NCBI GenBank assembly: GCA_021818685.1
Contig: JAKATP010000005.1
Coordinates: 1 to 54,188 of the forward strand
Reading direction: 5' to 3'
Length of the DNA: 54,188 nt
From: Bacillota bacterium
GTDB taxonomy: Bacteria > Bacillota > Sulfobacillia > Sulfobacillales > JAIMBI01
Below the pieces are notes generated by a model that had not been told where the DNA came from, made no database searches, and was given only the letters and a program-made list of their open reading frames with translations. The position numbers and the translations under genes are program-made. Shown here in pieces: positions 45,229-54,188 of the stretch. Numbering within the stretch: position 1 is the stretch's first letter; every line of letters begins with the position of its first letter.

Positions 45229-46383
45229 TCAGGGCTGGTAGTTGGCGGCAGCGGTAAAGACGGACCCGGTGCCGGACCCGACAAACCAGTAGAACACCCC
45301 CGGAATGCCGGCCTGGCGGGCGGCTTGAAGTTCGAGGACGAGACTTCTCCGATCGGTGAAGTAGACGGTGTGGCGTGCACGGCGTGGACCGTAGCGAAAG
45401 TACGGCACATCGCCGTGGGCATCCCATCGGATGCGGGCCCGATGCAACCCCGCCAGGCTCTTCACCTGAAGGAGCGTGAGGCCGGATGCGCGCCGTCCGA
45501 CCCAGTCGTACCCGTAAAACGGCAGCCCGAGACGAATCTTGGCCAGTGGAACGGTCGCCTTGGCATAGGTGAGCACCTGGCGGACCCACCAGAGGGGCGC
45601 GATGGGACCGGGGCGACTGCCCGGATATGAATAGTCGTAGGCCATGAGGAGTATGGCGTCCACCCGCCGGCCGAGCGCGCGATAGGAGAAGGCGCTCGAG
45701 CGGGCCCTCTTCGGGGTAAGGGCTGGCACGTCGATGCTGAGAAGTTTCTCGCGTCGGTGGAGAGCGGCCTCCAGCCGTCCGACAAAGGCGGTGAGGGCCC
45801 CGCGCTCACGGCGCGGAACGCCTTCGAAGTCGAGGTTGATGCCGGCATAGGGACCCGAGGTGGCCAAAGACACCAGGGCGGATATGAGTGCGGCCTCACG
45901 CCCCCCCTTGTTCAACAGGCGCACGAGAAGTTTCCGATCCGTACCGGCGTTCGGAGAGACCAGATTTGATACGGTGAGTTCGATAGGCACATGGTGGGCC
46001 GCTAGCTCCGAGACGAGCGACGGCGGCGCACTATCGTAGAGTCCGCCTTGGCTCGTGATGACCGCGGCGTCGAGGTAGACCATCGCGAGCTTAGGAGCCT
46101 GCGCGGCAAACACACGGACGGACGCGGGATCGTACAACACGACGAAACCGCTGTCTCTCGGCGGAGCGGGCGTGCGATTCACCGATGGCCGTTCGAATGC
46201 CGTTAGGGAGACCCCGATGACTGCTGCCAGCATCAGGGCAGCAAACCGGGGAGGGAGGCGGTGGCGAGTGGGCCCTTGGTCTTGCGTCGTGTGTCCCGCC
46301 CCGTTTCGATCGAGGTGCCGCGCCGCCGATGGCTGCCGGGCATCTTCCGGGTTTCTGGCATCGCGGGCGCGTTTCCTGCCCAT
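45229..46383 (-). CDS. Exported GH18-family glycosidase (peptidoglycan/chitinase-like)
   Basis: 384 residues from the ATG at 46383. After a 45-residue N-terminus with a hydrophobic segment (FAALMLAAVIGVSLTAF) comes a GH18 barrel: VPIELTVSNLV, PYAGINLDFEGVPR with the catalytic Glu in the DxxDxDxE position (here partly shortened to N-L-D-F-E), ILLMAYDYSYPGS and LPFYGYDW. Close in style to the YaaH/SleL spore cortex or cell-wall glycosidases. The open frame extends upstream into an 11-bp tandem repeat, so the exact start, and whether the repeat is translated, is uncertain. No clean ribosome site at 46383. Confidence 0.83.
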   Translation of the reverse strand: MGRKRARDARNPEDARQPSAARHLDRNGAGHTTQDQGPTRHRLPPRFAALMLAAVIGVSLTAFERPSVNRTPAPPRDSGFVVLYDPASVRVFAAQAPKLAMVYLDAAVITSQGGLYDSAPPSLVSELAAHHVPIELTVSNLVSPNAGTDRKLLVRLLNKGGREAALISALVSLATSGPYAGINLDFEGVPRRERGALTAFVGRLEAALHRREKLLSIDVPALTPKRARSSAFSYRALGRRVDAILLMAYDYSYPGSRPGPIAPLWWVRQVLTYAKATVPLAKIRLGLPFYGYDWVGRRASGLTLLQVKSLAGLHRARIRWDAHGDVPYFRYGPRRARHTVYFTDRRSLVLELQAARQAGIPGVFYWFVGSGTGSVFTAAANYQP

Positions 46384-46468
46384 CGAACATCCATCGAACA
46401 TCCATCGAACATCCATCGAACATCCATCGAACATCCATCGAACATCCATCGAACATCCATCCAACGTC
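46381..46468. repeat. 11-bp tandem repeat (7 perfect copies plus one degenerate)
   Basis: CATCGAACATC is repeated head to tail seven times exactly (46381-46457) and once with changes (to 46468). It touches the presumed start of the GH18 gene. On the minus strand it reads GATGTTCGATG, giving an ATG every 11 bases; because 11 is not a multiple of 3 the translation cycles through all three frames (MDVRW, MFDGCS) and none of them contains a stop. Confidence 0.95.
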
Positions 46469-46777
46469 CAGCAAGCGTTCGTCAAAGGGCTATCAAACGA
46501 CCCAAACCCAGGACGCGGTCTCACAAGACGCCAATGTCTCTCCGAGTGGGTTCTCAGGAGTCTCCAAGTTTGGGATCTCATCATGGGTGTTGCAGACAGA
46601 CGGGTCGTCAACAGCGCGGCCTGCGCGCCCCACACAACCATGGGGGTCACGGGATGGTTCGGACGTAAACGGGCTCATCGGAAGCGCCGGTCGCAGAGGT
46701 GCTGACAGAGTTCAGGTCCAATTCAGTTCAGGCAGATCAGATCACATCAGATCAGGTCGGAAAGGAAGGGATGGCAA
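46469..46777. other. Divergent intergenic region upstream of htrA
   Basis: No gene is supported. Near its end (46711-46758) there is a run of TTCAG and GATCA words spaced about 5-6 bases apart, just before the HtrA ribosome site (GGAAGGG at 46764-46770). Minus-strand reading frames pass through, but with proline/arginine/serine-rich translations. Confidence 0.5.
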
Positions 46778-48983: not shown

Positions 48984-49763
48984 CTACTTCTCCGGGGGTT
49001 CAGGAGCTGGGCGCCGGCTCCGGCCGCGCCAGAAATCGCGGATCGGATCGAAATAGCGGTCCGCCACACGCTCTTTTAACGGAATGATGGCGTTTTCGGT
49101 GATGGCGATCGCTTCCGGACATACGTCTGAACAGCATCGGGTCACGTTGCACCAGTCGACGCCGCCCTCGCGGCGCACGTACGGTGTGCGGTCCCGCGTG
49201 TCGAGAGGGTGCATGTCGAGTTCCGCCAGTTTCAGCATAAAACGCGGCCCCATGTAGTGGTCTAGGCGATGATGATCGCGAAGCACGTGGCACACATCCT
49301 GACACAAGAAACACTCAATGCAGCGGCGAAACTCTTTGAGCCGTTCCACGTCCTCCGGCCACAGCTGAAACGGCGCTGGGTGCGCGGGGGTGAAGGGCGG
49401 AATACGGCGCGCGATTTCGTAGTTCTTTCGGATATCCGGCACCAGGTCACGGATGACGGGAAACGTTTTCATCGGTCCCACATGAACGGCCTCGTTCCGC
49501 CGCATATAATCATCCATCCGCGTCTTGCACAAGAGGCGCGGCCGTCCGTTCACCTCGGCCCCACACGATCCGCAGTGGGCGGCCTTGCAGTTCCAGCGCA
49601 CAGCCAGATCGGGCGCCTCATGCTGCTGGACGTACAAGACGGCGTCCAGCACCACCATCCCGGGGGATAGTTCTACCATGTACTGCCGTTCCTCGCCGCT
49701 CAGGCCGTCCCCGCGAAAGATCCAGATCGGCACCTCGCGGCCCCGGAACCCGTCCTCCGTCAT
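48984..49763 (-). CDS. sdhB: Succinate dehydrogenase/fumarate reductase iron-sulfur subunit
   Basis: 259 residues. The N-terminal 2Fe-2S domain has CKAAHCGSCGAEVNG and a later Cys in RLLCKTRM; the C-terminal domain has CIECFLCQDVC and CNVTRCCSDVCPE for the 4Fe-4S and 3Fe-4S clusters. Electron relay between FAD and the membrane quinone. Overlaps sdhA by 4 bases. The sequence resembles the Sdh1-type enzymes of Actinobacteria. Confidence 0.93.
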   Translation of the reverse strand: MTEDGFRGREVPIWIFRGDGLSGEERQYMVELSPGMVVLDAVLYVQQHEAPDLAVRWNCKAAHCGSCGAEVNGRPRLLCKTRMDDYMRRNEAVHVGPMKTFPVIRDLVPDIRKNYEIARRIPPFTPAHPAPFQLWPEDVERLKEFRRCIECFLCQDVCHVLRDHHRLDHYMGPRFMLKLAELDMHPLDTRDRTPYVRREGGVDWCNVTRCCSDVCPEAIAITENAIIPLKERVADRYFDPIRDFWRGRSRRPAPEPPEK

Positions 49764-51544
49764 GCCCCTTCCGACCCCCTCGCGCGGGAGGCCTCCTCCC
49801 GCTGCCGCTTGACGCCGGGCGACACCGGATCATCAAAGAGTCGGCGGAGATCCGGGGGCATTTCCGGCACCGGCTCGTCCCGGACCTTTATCCGGCCGTC
49901 TGGACCGAGTGTCTGGACAATGTTGCGACGACCCTCTTCGGGGTCCTCGTCCGGGTAGTCGGTGCGCCAGTGGGCACCACGGCTCTCCCGCCGTTCCCGC
50001 GCACCCGTCAGGATGGCGCGGGCCAGGGTGAGCATGTTCTGCACGTCAAACACGAGCCCCCAGCCGGGATTGAAATGCAGGCCCCCGTCGGCCGACATCC
50101 GGTTCGCCCGCTCCGAGAGCCGTTCGAGGTGGCCGAGTCCGTCAGTGAGGCTCGTGCCGGAGCGCATGATGCCGGCATAGGTGGACATGAGCTGCTGAAG
50201 CTGGGCGTGGATCAGGTAGGGGTTTTCGCCGCTCTCGATGGCAAAAGGGGCGAGGACGCGCCGGCGCTCCTCCTCTATGGACGAGTACGACAAGGAAGAC
50301 GTCCCGGGGCGCCTCGCGGCGTAGGCCGCCGCCGCGAGGCCGGCGCGGCGGCCGAACACCAAAAGGTCGCCCAGGCTATTGCCACCGAGACGATTGCCGC
50401 CGTGCAGGCCGGCCGCCGTCTCCCCGCATGCATAGAGACCTTCAATATTGGTGGCGCCGGTCTCCGCTTCCACCCGGAGCCCGCCCATGGTGTAGTGGGT
50501 CGTCGGCGCCACCTCGAATCGCTCCCGGGTGATGTCTAGATCGGCGAGCTTTAAGAACTGCTCATACATGGTTGGAAGCTTCCGCTTGATATAAGCCGGG
50601 CCCTTGTGACTGATGTCGAGCCATGCCCCCCCGTGGGGTGTCCCCCGGCCCGCCTGCACCTCCCGAAAGATGGAGCGCGAGACCACATCGCGCGCGGAGA
50701 GCTCCTTCCGCTCGGGGTCGTAGCGCAACATGAAGCGCTCGTTCTGGCTGTTGAACAGGAGCCCGCCTTCACCGCGGACCCCTTCGGTTACCAGAATGCC
50801 ACGCACGCCCGGCGGCCACACCATACCTGTCGGATGGAACTGGACCATCTCCATGTCCATGAGCTCGGCTCCTGCCCGAAAGGAGATGGCGGCTCCGTCG
50901 CCGGTGGACTCCCACGAGTTCGAGCTCACCTTATAGACTCGGCCCCAACCGCCGCTGGCCATGATGACGGCATGCGCTGAAAAGATGAGAAAGCGGCCAT
51001 CGTCGCGCTGGTAGCAGAATGCACCAGCCGCCCGACCATTGTCGTCGAGGAAGAGGCGGGTCGTGATGACCTCCGGGTACACGTCCACCCGTTTGGTGGC
51101 CAGGATCTTGTACTCCAGCGTGCGGATCAGTTCCTTGCCGGTGCTGTCGCCCACGTGTGCGAGTCGGCGGAACGAGTGGGCGCCGAAGGGACGCTGCATG
51201 ATCCGGCCGTCCTCGGTGCGGTCAAAGACGGCCCCCCAGGTTTCAAGCTCGAGCACCCGGTCCGGCGCCTCCTGGGTATACAGCGAAACCATCCGGTAGT
51301 TGTTCAGGAAGTGGCCGGCCTTCATGGTGTCGTAGAAGTGCGTGTCAAAGCTGTCGTACGGGTCGAGATTCCCGAGCGCGGCCGCGATGCCGCCTTCGGC
51401 CATGACCGTGTGCGCCTTGCCGAGGAGCGACTTGGACAGGACCGCCACTCGGGCGCCCTCCTCAGCCGCGGCTAGCGCCGCACGCAGCCCGGCTCCTCCC
51501 GCTCCCACGATGAGGACGTCATAGTGCAGGGGGTCGATGTTCAT
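49760..51544 (-). CDS. sdhA: Succinate dehydrogenase/fumarate reductase flavoprotein subunit
   Basis: 594 residues from ATG 51544, which overlaps the sdhC stop (ATGA); an earlier in-frame start at 51610 lies inside sdhC. FAD-binding GAGGAGLRAALAAAEEG, the covalent-FAD histidine region KAHTVMAEGGIAAAL, substrate site MVQFHPTGM, catalytic Arg region RYDPERKELSARDVVSR and C-terminal HGGNRLGGNSLGDLLVFGRR. Oxidises succinate to fumarate in the citric acid cycle, feeding quinone. Confidence 0.95.
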   Translation of the reverse strand: MNIDPLHYDVLIVGAGGAGLRAALAAAEEGARVAVLSKSLLGKAHTVMAEGGIAAALGNLDPYDSFDTHFYDTMKAGHFLNNYRMVSLYTQEAPDRVLELETWGAVFDRTEDGRIMQRPFGAHSFRRLAHVGDSTGKELIRTLEYKILATKRVDVYPEVITTRLFLDDNGRAAGAFCYQRDDGRFLIFSAHAVIMASGGWGRVYKVSSNSWESTGDGAAISFRAGAELMDMEMVQFHPTGMVWPPGVRGILVTEGVRGEGGLLFNSQNERFMLRYDPERKELSARDVVSRSIFREVQAGRGTPHGGAWLDISHKGPAYIKRKLPTMYEQFLKLADLDITRERFEVAPTTHYTMGGLRVEAETGATNIEGLYACGETAAGLHGGNRLGGNSLGDLLVFGRRAGLAAAAYAARRPGTSSLSYSSIEEERRRVLAPFAIESGENPYLIHAQLQQLMSTYAGIMRSGTSLTDGLGHLERLSERANRMSADGGLHFNPGWGLVFDVQNMLTLARAILTGARERRESRGAHWRTDYPDEDPEEGRRNIVQTLGPDGRIKVRDEPVPEMPPDLRRLFDDPVSPGVKRQREEASRARGSEGA

Positions 51545-52314
51545 CGGAGGAGCCTCGGATCCCGAATCAGTCCGAGAATCAGGAGCCGGACGTACACGGC
51601 CGTACCCCACACCCAGAACATGGAAATCCAGGCGTAAAGACCGTGATGCTGGTTGAGTCGGCTGATGACCCGCCAGAGGTGGTAGCGGGCGCGGGGACGG
51701 CGCGGCTTACAGCGGTAACAGTTCAGGTTTCCACCTGCCAGGTGTCGGAATGCGTGGCAGGAAAACGTATAGAGGCTTAGGAGCGCGGCGTCGACCAGAA
51801 GCAGGAGGGACCCGAGGCCTATCCCGAACCGACCTCCGAAGTCAAATCCGTGGAGGGCATCGACCCACAGGAAAACGACGACGACCGTACTCAGATAGAA
51901 GAAGAACCGATGAAAATAGGTCCACACCATCGGGGGACGTGTTTCTCCGGTATAGCGGGTGCGACGGTCCGGAACGGCGCAGGCCGGCGGGCTCCCAAAC
52001 CAGGCACGGTAGTACTCCCGCCGATAGTAGTAGCAAGAGGCACGGAACAAGAGCGGCACCCACGCCACCCACAGGGCCGGAAAGACCGGAATCTTAAGCC
52101 AGCGTCCAAGATCAGGCGAAAAGTACGGCGACAGGTAGTTGTGATAGCGGCCATGCACCTGAAAAAAGACTTCCCACAGCGAGTAGAGGACAAACAGGGC
52201 GAGGGCCGCGCCTACCAGGACGGGTTCGATCCAAAAGTACCGTTCCGTCGCCGCCTTCGTCTGGTGGGGCGGTTCCTGATGCGATAGGGACGGGTGGGAA
52301 AGGGAGTCGTGCAC
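51541..52314 (-). CDS. sdhC: Succinate dehydrogenase cytochrome b membrane subunit
   Basis: 257 residues with five to six transmembrane segments; RYFWIEPVLV, LSPYFSPDLG, CYYYRREYYRAW, several membrane histidines (TYFHRFFFYL, FSCHAFRHLAGG). The single large anchor subunit, with no separate sdhD, and its sequence style match the actinobacterial Sdh membrane protein. It holds haem and the quinone site. GTG 52314 has AAGGAG eight bases upstream. First gene of sdhCAB. Confidence 0.87.
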   Translation of the reverse strand: MHDSLSHPSLSHQEPPHQTKAATERYFWIEPVLVGAALALFVLYSLWEVFFQVHGRYHNYLSPYFSPDLGRWLKIPVFPALWVAWVPLLFRASCYYYRREYYRAWFGSPPACAVPDRRTRYTGETRPPMVWTYFHRFFFYLSTVVVVFLWVDALHGFDFGGRFGIGLGSLLLLVDAALLSLYTFSCHAFRHLAGGNLNCYRCKPRRPRARYHLWRVISRLNQHHGLYAWISMFWVWGTAVYVRLLILGLIRDPRLLR

Positions 52315-52399: not shown

Positions 52400-52428
52400 T
52401 TGACCTTGGCTGGGACCGATGCTATAGT
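52400..52428 (+). promoter_or_regulatory. Sigma-A promoter of the methionine salvage leader
   Basis: TTGACC (52400-52405), 17-base spacer, TATAGT (52423-52428); five of six matches in each box. The predicted start is 52434-52436, just ahead of the SAM-I aptamer. Confidence 0.85.
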
Positions 52429-52452: not shown

Positions 52453-52580
52453 CCTTTATCAAGACAGGCAGAGGGATCGGCCCGATGATGCCTGGGCAAC
52501 CGGCGCACGATGCGTGCGGTGCCAACTCCGACGGCGCCAGACGCCGACAGATGAGGGAGGAACCGGAGCCCTGCACGCTG
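52453..52580 (+). promoter_or_regulatory. SAM-I (S-box) riboswitch
   Basis: The core is unmistakable: CTTTATCAAGACAGGCAGAG, then GGGATCGGCCCGATGA, CCTGGGCAACC, GGTGCCAACTCC and GACAGATGAGGG. P1 pairs CCTTTATC (52453-52460) with GATGAGGG (52550-52557). The 3' strand of P1 also contains GAGGG, complementary to CCCTC in the terminator stem (52584-52588), giving an antiterminator. SAM binding therefore should stabilise P1 and allow the terminator at 52581-52604, turning off the operon when S-adenosylmethionine is plentiful. Confidence 0.95.
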
Positions 52581-52628: not shown

Positions 52629-53810
52629 ATGGAGGACGGATCGGCAGGACGGCCGGGCGAGTTTCAGGTCGTCTACCAGGTGCAGACGGATCCGGTCATC
52701 GGAAGGGCGACTACCGGCGGTACGGAGGCGTGGCGGGCGCGTGGACGCTTTCTTGGAGAGGTTCCGGCCCCGCGCGGCGGACGCGCGTTGGAGGCCACAG
52801 AGAGCGCCGGAGGGCTAGAGGTGCGGGCGGCCCTGTCCTTGCCGGTTCAGGCGTCCCTCGCGGCCATCGTCGACGCCCTCGAGAGTGGGTGGCCGACGGA
52901 TGTTGCCGTTCGCATCGTGCATGTCGAGTTGCCCTCCAGGCTCGAAGAACACCTGCCGGGCCCGCGGTACGGGGTGCCCGAGCTCCGGCGGCGATTCGCA
53001 ACACGGTTCCGTCCCCTCCTTCTGGCGGCGGTAGACGGAGTCTCCGACGATCTCGACGATTGGGGCGCTGCTCTCCGTGTCCAATGGCTGGCCGGCGTCG
53101 ACATCCTCGTCGAGGGGCGGGGTGAAGACACGGCCGATGGGTCGGAGACGATGCGCCGGCTCGAGAGGGCAGGCTTGGAGGCTTCCCGCATCGCGTTGGA
53201 CACTCCCCGGCGGCCGCTCTACGCCGCCCGTCTGTTCCCGTCCGGACGTGATCTCGTGGCGCAGGCCGAGCGTCTTCGGGATGCGGGGGCCGAAGCCCTG
53301 GTTGTGGAATGGACGGTGTCGGACCTCGACGCGCTGGCGGCCGTAGCTCGGCTGCCTGACAGCCCGGTGATCGTAGCGATGGCGAAGCCCCGCGAGGCGC
53401 CAGCGGCGACTCCGGCGGTTCTCGCACCGGCGGTACTGTTCGGTGAGCTGGTGCGGGCGGCGGGAGCGGATGTGTCGGGGTATGATATCGCAGCTCCCGA
53501 GGGGCGTGCGGCACCCCTCGCGGCCACGGATCAGGCGTCGGTGGGCGAAGCCCTCGCCGCGTCGGGATTCCGGCGCGCGGCGTGGCCGGCGCCGTCTTTC
53601 GGCATTCATCCCGGGATCCTGCCGAGTCTGGTCCGGGAGCTCGGTCCGGACATCGTTATCGACGCCTCGGTCGCTATCCATGGCCATCCCGGAGGTCCGC
53701 GGGCGGGGGCAGCCGCCTTCACACAGGCACTGGACCGCCTGTCGGGGTACGCCGGACCCCTACCAGACGAGCTCGCGCAGGCGCTCGCCCGCTGGGGCGG
53801 TGCCGCGTGA
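52629..53810 (+). CDS. Divergent RuBisCO-like protein of the methionine salvage (MtnW-like) type
   Basis: 393 residues, close to the 414 of Bacillus MtnW. The RuBisCO-large-subunit-like order is visible: LPGPRYGV (109-116), RPLLLAAVDGV, LAGVDILVEG, then GIHPGILPSLVREL and AIHGHPGGPRAGAAAF. MtnW (DK-MTP-1-phosphate enolase) has LPGPKFG, FKG, GVDLIKDDE, HPA and NAGGG at these places. Here Lys is replaced by Arg113 and Asp136, the carbamylated-lysine/Asp/Glu metal set K-D-D-E reads V161-E-G-R, HPA reads K253-P-R, and the phosphate loop GGG is SVA. So it lacks what the enolase needs. It lies first after an S-box and overlaps an MtnE-like gene, so its place is that of MtnW; the reaction is unknown. 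Start ATG 52629 chosen after the terminator. Confidence 0.75.
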   Translation: MEDGSAGRPGEFQVVYQVQTDPVIGRATTGGTEAWRARGRFLGEVPAPRGGRALEATESAGGLEVRAALSLPVQASLAAIVDALESGWPTDVAVRIVHVELPSRLEEHLPGPRYGVPELRRRFATRFRPLLLAAVDGVSDDLDDWGAALRVQWLAGVDILVEGRGEDTADGSETMRRLERAGLEASRIALDTPRRPLYAARLFPSGRDLVAQAERLRDAGAEALVVEWTVSDLDALAAVARLPDSPVIVAMAKPREAPAATPAVLAPAVLFGELVRAAGADVSGYDIAAPEGRAAPLAATDQASVGEALAASGFRRAAWPAPSFGIHPGILPSLVRELGPDIVIDASVAIHGHPGGPRAGAAAFTQALDRLSGYAGPLPDELAQALARWGGAA

Positions 53811-54188
53811 GGCGCGCGACGAGACACGGGCAGGGCGCCTCCGCCATCCCCGGGGGACGTCCTCTGGCCGATCGGATGCAGGCCCTGCCGGAACAGTTCT
53901 TTTCGAACCTGGTGGCGAAGACCACGGCACGCATAAAGGCTGGACACGATGTCATCAATCTGGGGCAGGGCAATCCCATCGACGAGACCCCGCCGCATGT
54001 CGTCGACCGCCTCCGGTCCACCGCGGGCGAGCTTCGTTACCAGCGTTACGGGCCGTTCTCCGGGCTTTCTGATTTGAAGGCGGCGGCGGCACGCTGGTAT
54101 GCCGCGCGCTACGGCGTTCATCTCGACCCAGCGCGCGAGATCGCCATCACCATGGGCATGAAGGCAGGGCCACGTCATAGTCGACGAT
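53807..54188 (+). CDS. mtnE: MtnE-like aminotransferase (methionine salvage), 5' part
   Basis: 127 codons before the window ends. LPEQFFSNLVAKTTARIKAG, HDVINLGQGNP and YGPFSGLSDLKAAAARWY match the start of Bacillus MtnE, the fold-type I PLP aminotransferase that converts 2-keto-4-methylthiobutyrate to methionine. GTG 53807 overlaps the RLP stop (GTGA), though ATG 53874 (MQALPEQFF) is nearer the usual start. The last ~25 bases do not follow the family: reading in another frame gives GHVIVDD, which would fit later in the protein, so a deletion or sequence error near the end is possible. Confidence 0.8.
   Translation, partial: MRRATRHGQGASAIPGGRPLADRMQALPEQFFSNLVAKTTARIKAGHDVINLGQGNPIDETPPHVVDRLRSTAGELRYQRYGPFSGLSDLKAAAARWYAARYGVHLDPAREIAITMGMKAGPRHSRR

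Follow-up and report, generated by a model that had tools for sequence, protein, structure and literature searches.

A RuBisCO-like protein at the MtnW position of a Bacillota bacterium, predicted to be catalytically disarmed, with a barrel kept under purifying selection

Results and discussion

The RuBisCO-like protein (RLP) encoded near the end of the window, the 54,188-nucleotide stretch of DNA analysed here, appears from its sequence to be catalytically disarmed, and its barrel was shown to have been under purifying selection after the catalytic loss, as measured on a single MAG pair. The best explanation is a selected pseudoenzyme that was made from MtnW and in which the barrel is still used; this was considered probable, well short of certain.

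The RLP locus

The window genome (G000; 3.09 Mb, 95.8% complete) comes from a bacterium of an acid-loving group. The RLP gene and the elements upstream were located as follows.

52400–52428, + strand: promoter-like site, TTGACC-17-TATAGT, with TG ahead of the second hexamer; counterpart present in the related genome G001
52453–52557, + strand: SAM-I riboswitch aptamer (S box, RF00162), 84.2 bits
52580–52604, + strand: intrinsic terminator, GCGGCCC-loop-GGGCCGT followed by a T run; counterpart present at the G001 ortholog
52629–53810, + strand: RLP (MtnW-derived), 393 amino acids, predicted to be catalytically disarmed; assigned by ORF calling, profile and structure-sequence matches, and alignment

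The terminator is presumed to form the off-state of the S-box switch. The first-pass annotation was right about the open reading frame and its coordinates, the intact frame, the upstream S-box, and the missing catalytic landmarks.

Three genes reading as a succinate dehydrogenase/fumarate reductase set (48984–52314) were located between a hydrolase gene and the S-box; in G001, the S-box directly followed the hydrolase without such a set. A tandem 11-base unit, CCATCGAACAT, was repeated in 8.3 copies with 97% matches at 46380–46470 and was open in several frames.

Family membership and loss of the active site

When the window RLP was compared with MtnW structures (PDB codes 2oek, 2zvi, 4nas, and 3fk4), it was homologous over the barrel, with E values of about 1e-32. 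Both curated MtnW family models were missed, with scores of 144.1 bits against a cut-off of 409 and 124.6 bits against 513.6, and the score for the RuBisCO domain PF00016 (23.2 bits) was below the Pfam cut-off of 30.1 bits. The RLP of the intact relative G004 scored 411.9 bits, above the first MtnW cut-off and below the second.

The roles of the general base K98, the second active-site lysine K147, the KDDE motif, and the phosphate-loop glycines are taken here as established knowledge of the MtnW family. The alignment placed the following residues of the window RLP at these positions, with the sole lysine located by a lysine census.

52887–52889, + strand: Gly87 at the position of the general base K98 of Geobacillus MtnW (2oek); Ser in the G001 ortholog
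53034–53036, + strand: Asp136 at the position of K147 (2oek chain numbering; RuBisCO K175 position); Ala in the ortholog
53109–53120, + strand: VEGR (residues 161–164) at the K173-D174-D175-E176 position, the carbamate/Mg site; VEAG in the ortholog
53385–53387, + strand: Lys253, the sole lysine
53661–53696, + strand: DASVAIHGHPGG at the position of the phosphate loop NAGG(A/G)IHGHPGG, with the glycines lost (SV; TA in the ortholog)

Equivalents of K175, the K201 carbamate, D203, and E204 of the RuBisCO carboxylase were absent from the window RLP in the alignment. The replacements by Asp136 and VEGR had been named in the first-pass annotation and were confirmed. Arg113, which it had listed as a lost catalytic lysine, was not a loss, as the same Arg is found in Geobacillus MtnW (PGPRFG) and relatives carry R, H, A, S, or Y. 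Of the proposed change from HPA to KPR, the loss of His held in every alignment, and the substitution itself was gapless in one alignment and a deletion of HPAF in others. The phosphate loop, for which a change from GGG to SVA had been given, reads NAGG(A/G) in relatives and DASV in the window RLP.

The extent of the loss was evaluated on 105 columns that were unchanged across the 13 intact MtnW proteins of the order. In both the window RLP and its ortholog, 53 of these columns were lost, among them all the catalytic Lys, Asp, and Glu residues, and 40 were kept, mostly Gly, Pro, Arg, and Asp of the barrel. These losses at invariant columns exceed chance.

Known reactions of the RuBisCO superfamily depend on a lysine carbamate and a lysine base. 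Besides the single Lys253 of the window RLP, the G001 ortholog contained three lysines (residues 32, 34, and 42, all in the N-terminal stretch), and none of the positions coincided; the intact G004 RLP had four, of which three were catalytic. Because no lysine was common to the orthologs, a lysine carbamate or base is excluded as a shared mechanism. The same census ruled out a shifted lysine and acidic pair within the active site, which had been raised as a way in which the protein might still be an ordinary enzyme. Judged on these residues, the window RLP is catalytically disarmed.

A disarmed ortholog and the timing of the loss

G001 is the MAG 'Bacillota bacterium TL1-5.bin82' of the same genus (97% complete). 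Its RLP was 61% identical to the window RLP, had the same switch upstream, and was equally disarmed with different residues. The former catalytic positions differed between the window RLP and the ortholog (G87/S, D136/A, EGR/EAG, SV/TA, and HG/QD), and the ortholog had IQDHPGG where MtnW has IHGHPGG. In 28 of the 53 doubly lost columns, the replacement was the same, including K173V and D174E. In addition, an N-terminal deletion was common to the two proteins and took out part of the TVGSWTD loop, which lines the active site of the neighbouring subunit.

The shared replacements and the shared deletion indicate that the disarming predates the split of the two species; on these sequences, the catalytic loss most likely preceded it. 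No disarmed ortholog beyond that of G001 was found by a narrow pattern search in 84,980 species genomes.

Predicted structure

Modelled with AlphaFold2 (pLDDT 83, pTM 0.85), the window RLP had the order of secondary structures of an RLP, with low confidence at residues 22–40. Its best matches in the PDB were MtnW structures, with TM scores of about 0.7 and r.m.s.d. values of 7–9; the intact G004 RLP modelled in the same way gave about 0.9 and 2–3. The model was built from a shallow alignment (18 rows) and is given little weight; it is consistent with a retained barrel and with displacement or poor determination of the N-terminal domain.

Operon layout and methionine salvage genes

In G004 and G006, members of the same family, the S-box was followed by mtnW, mtnX, mtnB, mtnD, and an aminotransferase gene, and the active-site residues were intact. 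In G000 and G001, the S-box was followed by the RLP and aminotransferase genes, with mtnX, mtnB, and mtnD missing between them. Of the other family members, G003 had lost the whole operon, and G002 had the aminotransferase alone without an S-box. Over the whole genomes of G000 and G001, mtnX and mtnD were absent and mtnB had no match above the cut-off. The window genome contained no second RLP, which disposes of an intact mtnW elsewhere that would make this gene a dispensable paralogue, and no mtnC. As the canonical salvage route is gone, little salvage is left for the RLP to regulate, and the earlier suggestion of a regulator of salvage is weakened.

The window genome retained mtnA. In the genus of the window, mtnA overlapped a class II aldolase gene (L086:3030-4864 and L087:5198-6996), an arrangement that was not seen in the other genomes sampled. 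The best models for the aldolase were ribulose-1-phosphate and fuculose-phosphate aldolases, both below the cut-off. The pairing is similar to that of the MtnA-Ald2 (DHAP) shunt reported in PMC5893883, with the aldolase substrate in this genus only predicted.

The aminotransferase gene of the window genome was split by an insertion sequence.

53807–54164, + strand: 5' part of a class-I aminotransferase, MtnE-like by position; possible GTGA overlap with the RLP stop codon; interrupted at 54165
54165–54188, no strand assigned: end of an ISAs1-type insertion sequence, with a CAGGG terminal repeat and the 10-bp target duplication GGCATGAAGG; the contig of the window stops within the element

The window stops 24 bases into the element (aminotransferase site 54155–54188), and the remainder of the gene was on contig C173 (L084, 4116–6066), directly after the ISAs1 transposase region. 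The GGCATGAAGG duplication and matching terminal bases were found at both junctions, and the empty site would be in frame; from these sequences we infer the junction across the element, which was not assembled. If the insertion is fixed, the window RLP would be intact beside a broken aminotransferase neighbour.

Selection on the RLP

The dN/dS values were taken from close pairs only, because dS of more distant pairs was saturated. The RLP pair of the window and G001 gave 0.33 (0.26–0.42) overall at a dS of about 0.9, and the two domains behaved differently.

52629–52904, + strand: N-terminal domain, residues 1–92; TVGSWTD loop lost; low pLDDT at residues 22–40; dN/dS 0.87 (CI 0.54–1.35), near neutral
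52905–53807, + strand: barrel domain, residues 93–393; dN/dS 0.24 (CI 0.17–0.32)

Intact RLP pairs gave 0.06–0.19 in the N-terminal domain and 0.07–0.18 in the barrel, and the aminotransferase and two neighbouring genes of the same species pair gave 0.10–0.14. The four coding indels between the two RLP genes (3, 3, 3, and 9 bases) were each a multiple of three, and identity was 95% in the aptamer and 67% in the RLP coding sequence. The most conserved segments of the RLP were now residues 93–133 and 359–393. The stem branch leading to the pair was 2.75 changes per site in the RLP tree and an ordinary 0.45 in the aminotransferase tree; the long RLP stem is as expected for a burst of change once the function was lost, followed by renewed constraint.

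Real decay was observed in the same family. The mtnW of G005 (L021, G005:C70) is a true pseudogene with a premature stop and two frame breaks, and its motifs FRKLS, IFKSE, VNDDE, HPAF, and NAGGAIHGH were still legible. Frame breaks thus came before the erasure of motifs, so that plain decay in this family is the reverse of the window pattern. At the G005 locus, a damaged mtnB lay beside an intact mtnX, with an intact S-box above. A plain pseudogene is disfavoured for the window RLP by the open frame, the in-frame indels, and the barrel dN/dS. The view in the first-pass annotation of a pseudoenzyme and not decayed DNA is supported by the selection analysis, the disarmed ortholog in a second species, and the contrasting pseudogene of G005.

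The main rival to the pseudoenzyme reading is a slowly dying relic, functionless since the pathway was lost, in which high G+C content and early partial constraint mimic intactness. The near-neutral N-terminal domain agrees with it, as do an RLP protein rate 4–6 times that of the aminotransferase, the broken aminotransferase of G000, and the fate of the operon in G002, G003, and G005, where it was lost or has decayed. A neutral simulation produced 4.7 stops in each lineage and a probability of 0.014 for none, a test weakened by the high G+C content, at which open reading frames stay open more easily (1.4% per lineage). A relic is nevertheless hard to reconcile with a barrel dN/dS whose upper bound is 0.32 over the whole path since the catalytic loss, with indels that are all in frame under a conserved aptamer, and with the different course of decay in G005, and it was considered unlikely, if still to be taken seriously.

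The new chemistry proposed in the first-pass annotation would require a rebuilt, lysine-free site acting on another sugar phosphate, e.g. methylthioribulose-1-phosphate from the retained MtnA. The conserved barrel, with its two most conserved segments, would suit such an enzyme, and RLPs are known to change reaction, as in the Rlp1 isomerase of Rhodospirillum/Rhodopseudomonas (PMC5893883). However, the former active-site positions differ between the orthologs, which is contrary to what a newly conserved site would show; the N-terminal domain lining the active site evolves almost neutrally; and mtnA in this genus is coupled to the class II aldolase instead. New chemistry is thus disfavoured and was held to be rather improbable.

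It is more improbable still that the RLP frame serves as a translated leader, whose read-through couples translation to the aminotransferase so that the frame matters and the protein does not. No gene lies between the switch and the RLP, and the GTGA overlap with the aminotransferase is possible, but coupling puts no constraint on amino acids, in conflict with the barrel dN/dS; full length was retained although internal deletions would be free; and gaps separate the RLP and aminotransferase genes in the other orphan RLPs described below.

A possible origin of the pseudoenzyme

For the preferred reading of a selected pseudoenzyme, the following order of events is proposed. Comparison with relatives shows that the S-box operon lost mtnX, mtnB, and mtnD in the ancestor of the genus. 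The MtnW RLP, left beside the aminotransferase, would then have lost its substrate. Before the two species split, according to the shared derived changes, the general base, the carbamate/Mg site, the phosphate loop, and the N-terminal loop most likely disappeared. Purifying selection continued to hold the barrel, as the dN/dS values show, while the N-terminal domain drifted. The barrel may now have a binding role without catalysis; the simplest candidate for its partner is the co-transcribed aminotransferase, and the protein would be made at low SAM.

Several observations stand against this reading. The N-terminal domain looks neutral, and for the fully disarmed form selection was estimated from one MAG pair. 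The operon was lost in G003, only the aminotransferase was left in G002, and mtnW was broken in G005. With the aminotransferase split by the insertion sequence in the window genome, a role as its partner would already have been disrupted.

Recurrence in the order

The mtnX, mtnB, and mtnD genes were also missing between the RLP and aminotransferase genes in G021, G029, and G036 of the genus g8 (L124, L122, and L121) and in G008 of g5 (L125), with full operons in the sisters G011 (g8) and G027 (g5). Over the whole genomes of these four, mtnX was absent and mtnD had no match above the cut-off (G036 is 71% complete). The operon state required at least three changes on both the RLP and the aminotransferase trees, and at least two further lineages in the order had lost mtnX, mtnB, and mtnD and retained the RLP.

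In the g8 orphan RLPs, K98 was replaced by R, R, and S and the loop glycine by E, D, and E, while K147 and KDDE were kept, with the exception of KDAE in G036. Their frames were intact, and the barrel dN/dS of 0.12–0.14 indicates purifying selection. The G008 RLP was still canonical in sequence. The S-box was degraded in G029 (L122:6855-6944, 23.3 bits) and was undetected upstream of the RLP in G036 (L121); its loss or degradation in these two g8 orphans also counts against the pseudoenzyme reading.

A broader reading may be put forward tentatively, as a possibility less likely than its contrary. The RuBisCO fold would be reused non-catalytically in this order: after the loss of mtnX, mtnB, and mtnD, the RLP would be kept with the aminotransferase and move towards a disarmed form. 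The graded series, canonical in G008, half disarmed in g8, and fully disarmed in the genus of the window (g1), would then record the passage from an enzyme to a pseudoenzyme whose selected second role may already have been present in MtnW.

Comparison with known RLPs

RLPs are usually given a reaction according to their clade. Sulfobacillus RLPs, for instance, have been assumed to act in methionine salvage (PMC4378227). The present case suggests that the MtnW position can be occupied by an RLP without catalytic capacity that remains under selection with its pathway gone. Within one order, the graded series of orphan RLPs allows the transition from enzyme to pseudoenzyme to be tested on a small number of proteins, and it may point to a second, non-catalytic role of MtnW. 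No paper naming an RLP as a pseudoenzyme or as catalytically inactive was found in a literature search that covered few subscription papers.

Among characterised proteins, the MtnW/YkrW-clade RLP, the DK-MTP-1-P enolase, is alike in barrel homology, modelled fold, S-box, place at the head of the operon, and downstream aminotransferase. The window RLP differs from it in that the catalytic and metal residues are lost, the N-terminal domain is remodelled, and mtnX, mtnB, and mtnD are absent. Rlp1 of Rhodospirillum/Rhodopseudomonas (DeepYkr clade) is an MTRu-1-P isomerase (PMC5893883). It is similar in that it is an RLP acting downstream of MtnA and independently of the canonical salvage route, whereas the window RLP has no conserved pocket and no lysine as a base or carbamate.

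The orphan RLPs of g8 and G008 found here share the operon lesion and the intact frame, with purifying selection in g8. The g8 proteins differ from the window RLP in the retained K147 and KDDE (KDAE in G036), having lost K98 and the loop glycine, and that of G008 differs as a canonical protein. With pseudoenzymes in general, the window RLP shares a fold conserved under selection and the loss of the catalytic residues.
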